Positions 9,733-33,686 of a stretch of 64,000 bases of DNA are shown one piece after another (the stretch's first letter is position 1; every line of letters starts with the position of its first letter). Source of the DNA: Niallia circulans (GTDB lineage: Bacteria > Bacillota > Bacilli > Bacillales > Cytobacillaceae); NCBI RefSeq assembly GCF_007273535.1, contig NZ_RIBP01000004.1, positions 2,580,001 through 2,644,000 of the forward strand. Direction: 5' to 3'. The notes under the pieces are model-generated. The model was given only the letters and a program-made list of their open reading frames with translations. It did not search any database and was not told the origin of the DNA. The translations under genes were made by a program, and so were the position numbers.

Positions 9733-10083
9733 ATTGAATAGTAATACGATAGTCTCGAAAAATGGTTTCCCAAATTACTGTAAAAAGACTAGGACATTAA
9801 ATTGCTATTTAAGCTCTAATGAAATTTTTTATTACTATTTGAATATACCACTAAAACCAGGCAGGGCTGGGTAATGCTATAACTCCAACCCCCTTTATGT
9901 ACAAGCAAAAAACAGACTATTCAATGTAATACCAATATAATTTTCCGTTTCAAGTTTTTAGGGGAATGGAGACAGTTGCACTTGAAGTCTCGATATATAT
10001 TTATAAGCAATGCAGTTGCATTCTAATATAATGTAGTGTAAACTAGCAACAATTAAATAGTAAAGGACCACATTATGTGGTCG
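9733..10083. other. Gene-free stretch before the FMN riboswitch
   Basis: No convincing ORF or stable repeat. A TATAAT at 10027-10032 is a plausible -10 for the riboflavin transcript, but no good -35 is visible 16-18 bp before it. Confidence 0.4.
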
Positions 10084-10225
10084 CCTTCGGGGTAGGGTGA
10101 AATTCCCAACCGGCGGTGATGAGCGTTCGTGTGCTCTAAGCCCGTGACCCGGCTTAAAAAATTTTTAAGGCGGTGGATTTGGTGAGAAACCAAAGCCGAC
10201 AGTATAGTCTGGATGGGAGAAGGAA
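10084..10225 (+). promoter_or_regulatory. FMN riboswitch (RFN element)
   Basis: Conserved RFN blocks occur in order: GGGGTAGGGTGAAATTCCC, AACCGGCGGTGAT, AGCCCGTGACCCGG, a variable hairpin, GGTGGATTTGGTGAGAA, CCAAAGCCGACAGTATAGTC, GGATGGGAGAAGGA. It binds FMN and shuts off riboflavin genes by transcription termination. It lies 400 nt before ribE, an unusually long gap. Confidence 0.96.
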
Positions 10226-10391
10226 TAACAAAAGCTGCTGATTCATTATGTGGATTCAGTGTGTTTGGTGTGAGTATTGCTAACTTAGGTTCGCTTTTTT
10301 GACTATGGGCTAAATTATGTCCATGTTTAAAACAGGTGTAGCTTTATTTAGTGTACCCTTATACCAAATTTGCGCCTTTATTTGTTATGCA

Positions 10392-29991: not shown

Positions 29992-30020
29992 TTGACAAAA
30001 TGTAAATAATAGGGTATTCT
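29992..30020 (+). promoter_or_regulatory. Sigma-A promoter of the unassigned RNA
   Basis: TTGACA (29992-29997), 17-bp spacer, TATTCT (30015-30020). Confidence 0.75.
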
Positions 30021-30026
30021 ATTACT

Positions 30027-30474
30027 TGTATGTATTTGAGGCAAGAACGGATTTGAATTATAAAAGTAAAAGATTTTGTGTAAAGTTATGTAGATGCAAA
30101 CCAACCAGGAACAGTTGAAAAACAGAATAAACACCACTTTAACAATCTTCTCCAAAAATCACATTAAAAATAATCTCTCATATGCGGATTAACCCTTCCA
30201 AAAATTATTCTCAGTTAATGTTATTTTTGCCGCCGTTCTAACTGATAGAACCTAAATTCACACTGGCACGGCCTCGGAGCCGTAAGGATGAAAGAGAGGT
30301 AGGGCTTTCATTGTTTTAGGCAATGGCACTAATTAGTAGTGCATTCCTTAAATATATGCCAATAAAAGTGCAAGTTTTTACATAGGTCTACTTTCTTCAT
30401 ATAATAATGAACAAAGATCTATTGCAGCACTCACCACTGGGCATCTCCTGAATTAACAGGAGATGCCCTTTTTT
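30027..30474 (+). ncRNA. Structured transcript of unknown class upstream of folD
   Basis: From the promoter at 29992 to a perfect terminator (GGGCATCTCCTG / CAGGAGATGCCC, TTTTTT, 30439-30474) there is no convincing ORF but several hairpins: GTTCTA-ACTGA-TAGAAC (30235-30251), ACGGC-CTCGGA-GCCGT (30268-30283), ATGAAAG / CTTTCAT (30288-30311) and GCACTA-ATTAG-TAGTGC (30326-30342). CCTAAA (30251-30256) can pair with TTTAGG (30315-30320) to close a junction over two of them. It does not match the RFN, T-box, SAM, lysine, TPP, purine, c-di-AMP, M-box or THF consensus as I know them. It may be a stand-alone sRNA or an upstream leader. Ends are approximate. Confidence 0.55.
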
Positions 30475-30529
30475 CATGTCGAAACTTGTTTTCATAAAAT
30501 GAGAGCTATGTTATTATTACCTAGTAAAT

Positions 30530-30622
30530 AGATTCGTTTCGCAGTGACTGACGACAATAATGGAATAAACCATATGGGAGCTGTGAAAGGTGTATAGCCG
30601 GTCGTCTGGGCAAAAGGTGATA
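30530..30622 (+). promoter_or_regulatory. ZTP riboswitch (pfl motif) of folD
   Basis: Conserved blocks AGTGACTGACGACA, TGGAATAAACCA, GGGAGCTGTG and the pseudoknot-side GCCGGTCGTCTGGGCA are in the right order. It senses ZTP/ZMP, the signal of low 10-formyl-THF, and turns on one-carbon genes such as folD. AAAGGTGATAAACCTTT (30614-30630) may be the short expression hairpin. Confidence 0.88.
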
Positions 30623-31530: not shown

Positions 31531-31579
31531 GTATATAACGCTTGTAAGTTCGGTATATGTTTTTTAAGGATTGTTGGTC

Positions 31580-31663
31580 ATGGTTGCACATACAGCCTAT
31601 GTCCGAAAAGGTAGCGATGCTTCACTGATTCCTAAAGATTTATATAAGTTCTTAAAGGTGTAA
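31580..31663 (+). CDS. 27-residue leader ORF upstream of csp
   Basis: ATG with AAGGA 9 nt upstream encodes MVAHTAYVRKGSDASLIPKD followed by LYKFLKV, stopping 21 bp before the csp start. It sits within the long cold-shock leader. Not recognised; it could be a translated leader peptide or only part of a structured UTR. Confidence 0.4.
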   Translation: MVAHTAYVRKGSDASLIPKDLYKFLKV

Positions 31664-31684
31664 CACAATTTTGGAGGTTTTACA

Positions 31685-31885
31685 ATGAACACAGGTAAAG
31701 TAAAATGGTTTAATGCAGAAAAAGGTTTCGGTTTCATCGAGTCTACTGAAGGACAAGACGTATTCGTTCACTTCTCCGCTATCCAATCAGAAGGTTTCAA
31801 AACTTTAGAAGAAGGCCAAGAAGTAACTTTCGAAATCGTTGAAGGTAACCGTGGACCTCAAGCTTCTAACGTAAACAAAGCTTAA
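31685..31885 (+). CDS. Cold shock protein, CspB-like
   Basis: 66 residues, RBS TTGGAGG. Five-stranded OB-fold RNA chaperone with RNP1 KGFGFIE (residues 13-19) and RNP2 VFVHFSAI (about 26-33); GKVKWFN start. It binds single-stranded RNA and acts as antiterminator and translation aid in the cold. The mRNA has a long 5' leader and its own terminator. Highly like the second copy at 33.8 kb. Confidence 0.96.
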
Positions 31886-31898
31886 TAATTTTTAGATT

Positions 31899-31935
31899 AA
31901 AGGTGATGCCTTTCCTTAATGCATCACCTTTTTTT
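31899..31935 (+). terminator. Terminator after first csp
   Basis: AAAGGTGATGC / GCATCACCTTT, 11-nt loop, then TTTT. Confidence 0.9.
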
Positions 31936-32216: not shown

Positions 32217-33686
32217 TTGACGACTTTTTCAGATTTTAATTTAAGCAGCAGTTTAGAAAAAGCATTATCCAATATGGGTTTTGAAGAACCAACACCAATT
32301 CAAGCACAGGCGATTCCTATTGGTCTTGCTGGTAAAGATATGATCGGACAGGCACAAACAGGAACAGGTAAAACAACAGCATTCGGTGTTCCACTTTTGG
32401 AAAAAATCGAAGTTGGTAAAGCTGTTCAAGGCCTTGTTATCGCGCCAACTAGAGAATTGGCTGTACAGGTTGCAGAAGAACTTAACCGTATCGGTGCAGT
32501 AAAAGGCATCCGTACATTGCCAATCTATGGTGGACAAGATATTAACCGTCAAATCCGCGGATTAAAGAAAAAGCCAGAGATTATCGCAGCAACTCCTGGT
32601 CGTCTTATCGACCATATTGAAAGAAAAACAATTCGTCTGCAAGATACAAAAATGATCGTTTTGGACGAAGCAGATGAAATGCTAAATATGGGCTTCATCG
32701 AAGATATCGAAAGAATCTTGAGTGAAACACCAAAAACACGTCAAACTTTACTTTTCTCAGCAACAATGCCAAAAAGAATTCAATCATTGGCAGAGCGCTT
32801 CATGGTGGAGCCAGAGCTTGTTAAGGTTAAAGCGAAAGAAATGACTGTTACAAATATTGAACAACACTATATCGAGCTGCAAGAACGCCAAAAGTTTGAT
32901 GTACTATGCAGTCTTCTTGATATCCAATCACCAGATCTTGCGATTGTTTTCGGAAGAACGAAAAAACGTGTTGATGAAGTAGTTGAAGGTTTAATTAAAC
33001 GTGGATATTCTGCTGAAGGAATCCATGGTGATATTCCACAAGGGAAAAGGGATCAAGTAATCCGCCGTTTCAAGGAGCAAACAATTGATATCATGGTAGC
33101 AACAGATGTAGCTGCTCGCGGATTGGATATTAGCGGTGTAACTCATGTTTACAACTTTGATATTCCACAAGACCCTGAAAGCTATGTTCACCGTATTGGT
33201 CGTACTGGCCGTGCAGGTAAAAAAGGTTATGCAGTAACATTAGTATCTCCAAGAGAATTGGATCACCTTCGCATCATTGAAAATGTTACGAAGAAAAAAA
33301 TGGTGAAAAACCCAATTCCATCAACTACAGATGTATTGGCAGGAAACCAACAGGCAACAATCAACAAAATCCAAAAAACAGTTGAAGAAAACCAATTCGC
33401 AGAATATAAGCGTCTTGCGGAAACTTTGCTGGAAGAAACAGATTCTGTTACATTGCTTGCAAGTGCATTAAAGCTTCTAACAAAAGAGCCGGATGCAACG
33501 CCAGTTAAATTGACTGCTGTTGAACCGCTTCGTTCTAAAAAGCCGAAAGGTGACCGTTCTGGCGGAGGACGTCGTCGTAGTGGTGACAGAGGCGGACGCG
33601 GATATGATCGCAACCGTGGCGGTGGCAACGGCAACGGCGGCGGCGGAGAAAGAAGAAGCAGAAACAGAAATAGAAGCAGAGACTAA
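32217..33686 (+). CDS. cshA: DEAD-box RNA helicase CshA
   Basis: 489 residues, TTG start after AAGGAGGAA. Q motif ([15 protein letters not shown]), Walker A AQTGTGKT (46-53), [32 protein letters not shown]. The C-terminus is a basic Gly/Arg tail (about 440-489: [18 protein letters not shown]) for RNA binding. CshA unwinds mRNA in the degradosome and helps ribosome assembly in the cold. It lies between two csp genes and no terminator is seen between it and the second one. Confidence 0.96.

Follow-up and report, generated by a model that had tools for sequence, protein, structure and literature searches.

What RNA is specified by the promoter-to-terminator unit that precedes the folD leader in Niallia circulans, and which cellular process does it belong to? 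The unit lies in the window, by which we mean the whole 64,000-nt stretch analysed here (contig NZ_RIBP01000004.1, positions 2,580,001 to 2,644,000). The gene order around it, as read from the open reading frames, is glpD, element, ZTP riboswitch/folD, csp, DEAD-box helicase and csp. The features discussed below are the following.

29992-30474, plus strand: promoter-to-terminator unit of about 450 nt in a Niallia-type genome
29992-30020, plus strand: SigA-type promoter TTGACA-17-TATTCT (scan, 10/12; TTGAC invariant at 13/13 genus loci)
30027-30041, plus strand: conserved block TGTATGTATTTGAGG, predicted 5' end of the transcript (present at 13/13 genus loci)
30241-30322, plus strand: three-way-junction core (model R1, pair counts, G.U versus A.C test)
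30251-30256/30315-30320, plus strand: P1, closing helix CCTAAA/TTTAGG
30268-30272/30279-30283, plus strand: P2, ACGGC/GCCGT with loop CTCGGA
30287-30294/30305-30312, plus strand: P3, GATGAAAG/CTTTCATT with loop AGAGGTAGGG
30326-30342, plus strand: extra hairpin GCACTA/TAGTGC behind P1 (sequence)
30439-30474, plus strand: intrinsic terminator GGGCATCTCCTG-AATTAA-CAGGAGATGCCC-TTTTTT, 12 pairs and six T (scan, folding)
30238-30324, minus strand: match to Rfam BsrC (RF01410), interpreted as lying antisense to the actual RNA (88.8 bits, E 2.3e-14, gathering score 38)
30534-30618, plus strand: ZTP riboswitch before folD, a separate unit (Rfam match, promoter scan)
31685-31885, plus strand: csp gene (ORF; PF00313 match at the corresponding place in G000)
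32217-33686, plus strand: DEAD-box RNA helicase gene (ORF; named from sequence reading)

The transcription unit and its core

A first-pass annotation had described a promoter and a perfect terminator bounding about 450 nt with no supported ORF. This description held on all points: in the ORF list, the only frames overlapping the unit encode 30-60 aa. Promoter-like matches in the stretch were only somewhat more frequent than in shuffled sequence (7 versus 3.9±1.9), so the promoter call rests on conservation. The TTGAC of the -35 box and the block TGTATGTATTTGAGG just past the start site are invariant across 13 Niallia loci, and transcription is predicted to start at about 30027. The terminator has a folding energy of -24.5 kcal/mol (z -8.1). 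Its sequence drifts among the 13 genus loci while a hairpin with a T-rich tail, judged by eye, stays behind the core in each; at least five consecutive T were found behind the core at 12 of these loci and four at the remaining one (L116). A second plus-strand promoter-like site (30377-30405, 11/12) was seen between core and terminator. An RNA of about 60 nt starting from this site was considered and rejected, as by eye the site is not kept within the genus.

The strand, limits and main helices proposed at first reading proved correct, and the covariation that had been suggested as a check was found in the structured part. In 130 aligned cores out of 132 non-redundant ones (L253 and L264 were left out), 16/17 pairs showed compensatory changes and 95.2% of cells paired. 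Double-change cells numbered 381, compared to 102±13 in shuffles and 40-65 with slid partners. The GGA of the P2 loop and the P3 loop AGAGGTAGGG are near-invariant; the AAGGA joint is not invariant. Among the helices named originally, ACGGC/GCCGT, ATGAAAG/CTTTCAT and CCTAAA/TTTAGG covary across Bacilli. The other two vary within the genus: GCACTA/TAGTGC is swapped for ACAC/GTGT at other Niallia loci (by eye), and GTTCTA/TAGAAC is found at only 5/13 loci. Taken alone, the window core has unremarkable stability (z -0.33, no better than shuffles), and its minimum-energy fold differs from the comparative fold; single-sequence stability was not counted as support. A core-encoded peptide, ATG AAA GAG AGG TAG, was rejected because the P3 arm containing it changes with compensation. 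As shown by comparison among loci, the unit reads as a putative noncoding RNA composed of a promoter, a three-way-junction core and a terminator.

The strand of the BsrC element

The RNA had been taken to be of unknown class. This fails in name: the Rfam 15 scan gave BsrC far above its gathering score, though on the minus strand, and the locus itself is not new, the Rfam family already covering it. On the plus strand over the unit, no Rfam family exceeded its cut-off at E up to 10; in that search only the ZTP riboswitch passed its gathering score. RF01410 was present in 153/299 genomes of the class and in 85/101 relatives, with up to four copies each. In a phylum sample of 299 genomes, the 10 with a match all fell within the class or order of the window. 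An exact 29-nt stretch of the core recurred in 73 contig stretches ranging from Bacillus to Paenibacillus. Our plus-strand model, R1, scored 90.1 bits here as its sole match in the window and found 99/200 genomes of the class. B. subtilis, one of the control genomes, also carries the element. A second core copy was seen in Niallia taxi (NZ_CP102590.1, 1282364-1282428) on a 1.44-Mb replicon listed as a plasmid, and further plasmid-collection matches came from Paenibacillus cellulosilyticus and Aneurinibacillus.

On the true strand of a structured RNA, G.U replaces Watson-Crick pairs, and the opposite strand shows these replacements as A.C mismatches. Read in the plus direction, the 130 cores contained 325 G.U and 14 A.C cells, with G.U ahead in 17/17 pairs; in the subset below 80% identity (64 rows) the counts were 161 and 8. 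The Rfam direction was counted on 226 distinct elements, which remained after removal of L265 and of trimmed sequences shorter than 86 nt. The longest stem gave 1511 Watson-Crick, 6 G.U and 263 A.C cells (1 G.U and 108 A.C without its outer pair), the closing stem 29 G.U and 209 A.C, and the third stem helix 1 G.U and 116 A.C. One possible pair just outside the third-stem (P2) helix followed the opposite trend, with 174 G.U and 0 A.C. Consensus folding yielded -2.1 kcal/mol in the Rfam direction versus -12.8 for the reverse complement, and the single-sequence energy was lower on the plus strand in 233/247 elements.

Transcription signals were scanned around 247/270 elements, after repeats and those with less than 350 nt of flank were dropped. 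Upstream promoter matches scoring at least 10.5 occurred at 121 elements in the plus sense, compared to 6 in the Rfam sense and 12 in shuffled sequence; the other two sides gave 24 and 9. In the 245 nt downstream, the plus sense had terminator-like sites at 134 elements, against 32 for the Rfam sense and 35 for shuffles; the plus-sense downstream region read backwards gave 109 and the plus-sense upstream region 53. With stricter rules over 345 nt, the counts were 64 (plus), 13 (Rfam sense) and 3 (shuffled), and 35 and 23 for the other two. Neither pair counts, promoters nor terminators place the RNA on the strand modelled by Rfam.

Two individual cases bear indirectly on the same point. A Bacillus halotolerans copy lies between two genes that we take to be ydaG- and ydaH-like; in the plus sense all three are co-directional, and the Rfam match is on the opposite strand. 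Behind this copy, a hairpin and T-run missed by the scans are visible by eye. In RNA-seq of Paenibacillus riograndensis, a 322-nt 'BsrC' transcript is listed on the minus strand near 0.688 Mb in the part of the source available (PMC5670726). In 21 genomes of one genus, taken as Paenibacillus, the Rfam match lies at 0.45-0.70 Mb of contig 1, with the plus strand matched in 18; setting the transcript against these genomes assumes synteny. In one such genome, the strand opposite to the Rfam match has an extended -10 promoter match and, some 290 nt further on, what looks by eye like a GC-rich hairpin with five T; the scan lists that hairpin on the other strand only. Collectively, these comparisons show the plus strand as the probable sense strand of what Rfam calls BsrC, and the Rfam entry appears to describe the wrong strand. 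The RNA is strongly conserved and present in roughly half of the class genomes sampled; if the catalogue does record the antisense strand, it is overlooked by probes, target predictions and annotation alike.

bsrC was reportedly first described by Saito in 2009. In the literature searched, which included few subscription papers, we found no description of an RNA class that combines this sense strand, a three-way junction, a link to cold shock and relatives in phages, no described function for BsrC RNA, and no paper mentioning RF01410 or a csp-leader RNA class. The B. subtilis copy between cspC and ydeB is labelled a toxin-antitoxin sRNA in the consulted part of BSGatlas (PMC8208703). A type I system would comprise a small toxin ORF and an antisense RNA; over the unit the frames are all of the short kind given above, and our comparisons yielded no support for the label.

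Cold-shock, helicase and phage neighbourhoods

The neighbours of the element offer a first clue to its role. Genome handles were available for 185 of the 247 elements, and their families were typed by hand. A csp or DEAD-box gene lay within 1 kb of 46/185 elements, in 22/51 families, on the same strand in 41 cases; neither was found within 1 kb of the other 139. For csp alone the count was 43 elements versus 0.29 expected from the measured gene density, an expectation derived from hand-summed gene counts and rounded genome sizes (81 genes, 103.66 Mb). Among the remaining 62 elements, 14 had a csp or DEAD-box gene within 1 kb. The arrangement varies by family, with csp downstream, csp upstream or the helicase downstream, so one inherited cluster cannot explain all cases, although the families are not fully independent. 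A ydeB gene (CarD-like) was upstream on the same strand in 44/247, and the neighbours of 56 further elements were varied. The recurrent csp/DEAD-box neighbourhood makes the hypothesis of a cold-shock role testable. Published work on B. subtilis describes effects of CspB and CspD on terminator read-through and cold induction of cspC (PMC8307031).

Where csp is upstream, the printed cases mostly show a terminator-like hairpin after csp and before the element (by eye). Family f181 has csp downstream of 14/17 elements; in its printed cases the distance from core block to csp is 145-191 nt, and this spacer often contains a long hairpin with a U-rich tail. The spacer is only 92 nt long in L199 and L200 and has no promoter-like site there. 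In some families the element sits between a promoter and csp. By eye, csp leaders (L199 from core to csp, L284, L190-L206) contain an additional UUUAYY..RUAAA hairpin before the ribosome site, and in many a long UUCACAU..AUGUGAA hairpin lies ahead of it. Pairing of the core UUCACA with the csp-leader hairpin was considered and rejected, since L284 has the hairpin without UUCACA.

Is the window element then a cis-acting leader, its terminator acting as an attenuator of read-through into the ZTP-folD-csp-helicase cluster? The shared strand of element, ZTP/folD, csp and helicase would fit, as would the 36/247 elements followed within 420 nt by a co-directional csp or DEAD-box gene, 23 of these elements having a hairpin of at least 14 pairs in between. 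Promoter-like sites lie upstream of 24 of these 36 and in between in 18, so not all of them are leaders. In the window, the terminator is strong and a promoter-like site (30489-30517, 9/12 with TG) lies between it and the ZTP riboswitch. A cis leader would have a constant or related gene downstream; for this element no downstream gene is constant, and it is csp or DEAD-box in part of the families and varied elsewhere. We regard the attenuator as unlikely. The first-pass annotation had offered a tandem control leader for folD or a separate sRNA; the latter stands, and the former is disfavoured by the same terminator and promoter-like site and by the position of the element outside Niallia and some relatives, where it is not beside folD (folD is downstream in 24/247). 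Comparison across Bacilli presents the element as a putative free-standing unit in most of the contexts seen and ties it strongly to csp and DEAD-box genes. Elsewhere in the window, Rfam matched a cspA thermoregulator (RF01766) at the csp gene (31578-31932, plus strand, 89.9 bits) and an FMN riboswitch (10079-10228, plus strand, 109.5 bits).

Distant relatives of the core occur in phages and prophages. The R1 search of 200 genomes of the class gave seven weak matches (24-28 bits), one of which (L318) lies inside an ORF and was taken as chance. Among the others and a further match, L322 (49 bits), ORF reading placed RecT- or YqaJ-like frames at L316, L319 and L322. A pattern scan returned six viral contigs, five of them confirmed by R1 (26-39.5 bits) and one, L329, not. 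A host-type scan returned one viral contig, L334, with a normal copy (94 bits). In Brevibacillus phage Emery (KC595516; L335:3036-3085) a core relative lies between gp73 and gp74 (R1, 30.6 bits). A Blast search of phages with the window core produced matches only at E of about 1. Viruses, to judge from these relatives, may use this module too. In L316, L328, L332 and L333, Rfam placed a Hammerhead_II match at the core or immediately ahead of it; L316 and L332 are identical there, leaving three distinct sequences.

L328:7021-7164: Hammerhead_II match directly upstream of a core relative, small phage gene next
L332:7343-7486 (same sequence as L316:1010-1153): Hammerhead_II match directly upstream of a core relative, small phage gene next
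L333:6907-7044: Hammerhead_II match directly upstream of a core relative, small phage gene next

No hammerhead was found in phage Emery in the Rfam search at E up to 0.1, or by Rfam in the remaining viral contigs. By eye, the core in L332 and in Emery is followed by a ribosome site and a start codon. Prophage hammerheads are known, and the available part of that report makes no mention of the core element (PMC3088659).

These arrangements raise the idea of a 5'-end shield, a compact fold guarding downstream RNA from 5' decay. The Hammerhead_II match ends at the core start in the three distinct sequences, and in the phage cases the next gene begins right behind the core. In the window, however, some 215 nt separate the 5' end from the core, Emery has no Rfam hammerhead, and the near-invariant loops exceed what stability requires; we give this explanation little credence.

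Proposed role and known systems

The loops could instead serve a CsrA or Hfq sponge acting through the GGA and purine-rich sequences. In the available part of an Hfq co-precipitation sRNA table, bsrC of B. subtilis is the top entry among the rows seen (ratio 53.6), with the peak direction inferred in that study (PMC3574147). Against a sponge, among 25 chosen genomes with the element 6 were without Hfq and 6 without CsrA, and among 30 chosen genomes without it Hfq was present in 28 and CsrA in 22; the AAGGA joint, moreover, varies. This co-occurrence rules out Hfq and CsrA as obligatory or general partners, and the sponge as a whole seems quite improbable. Least credible is that Rfam is correct and BsrC is a minus-strand sRNA pairing with ribosome sites via C-rich loops: the bit score of the Rfam entry, CCUCUC loops resembling the anti-Shine-Dalgarno sequence (by eye) and the one pair outside P2 that favours the Rfam strand stand against the G.U/A.C counts, consensus and single-sequence energies, promoters and terminators, and neither P1 nor P3 is paired in the displayed Rfam consensus.

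Our preferred reading is that the sense of BsrC is the plus strand, recognisable by the GAGAGGUAGGG loop, and that the core of this RNA is a recognition module for a partner in cold shock or RNA remodelling, working in cis in leaders and in trans here; we hold this to be about evenly balanced between true and false. This putative partner would be bound by the core, which displays GGA and AGAGGUAGGG in its loops. The core may act in cis in csp, helicase and phage leaders, and a stand-alone RNA such as that in the window would work in trans, probably serving this partner as decoy or effector. Judged from sequence comparison, the likeliest role for the window RNA is that of a free-standing transcript working in trans within the network of cold shock and RNA remodelling. 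More tentatively, and with the chances leaning clearly against it, a single RNA class, obscured by its Rfam strand assignment, could serve the cold-shock RNA-chaperone network of Bacilli as a regulatory module, acting in cis in csp/DEAD-box leaders and in trans as stand-alone decoys, and be copied by phages and released there by hammerheads.

Several known systems resemble this RNA in part. CsrB/RsmZ-type RNAs carry many GGA hairpins. The window RNA likewise has GGA in a hairpin loop and is possibly trans-acting; it differs in being one compact junction and in occurring in genomes without CsrA. Prophage Hammerhead_II ribozymes, as far as described in the part of the report available (PMC3088659), are related by position, since three distinct phage/prophage core relatives follow such a ribozyme, whereas the host unit in the window has no Rfam hammerhead match. 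The cspA thermoregulator RF01766 and csp leaders with cold-shock boxes are likewise structured RNAs in csp leaders, but have another fold, and the window-type element is mostly a separate unit. A further one is BsrC RF01410 of the B. subtilis ydaG-ydaH region, which belongs to the same locus family and whose model matches the window and half of the sampled Bacilli. The window RNA differs from that entry in its apparently opposite strand, in the helices P1 and P3, which are absent from the Rfam structure shown, and in its limits, which are set by a promoter and a terminator.
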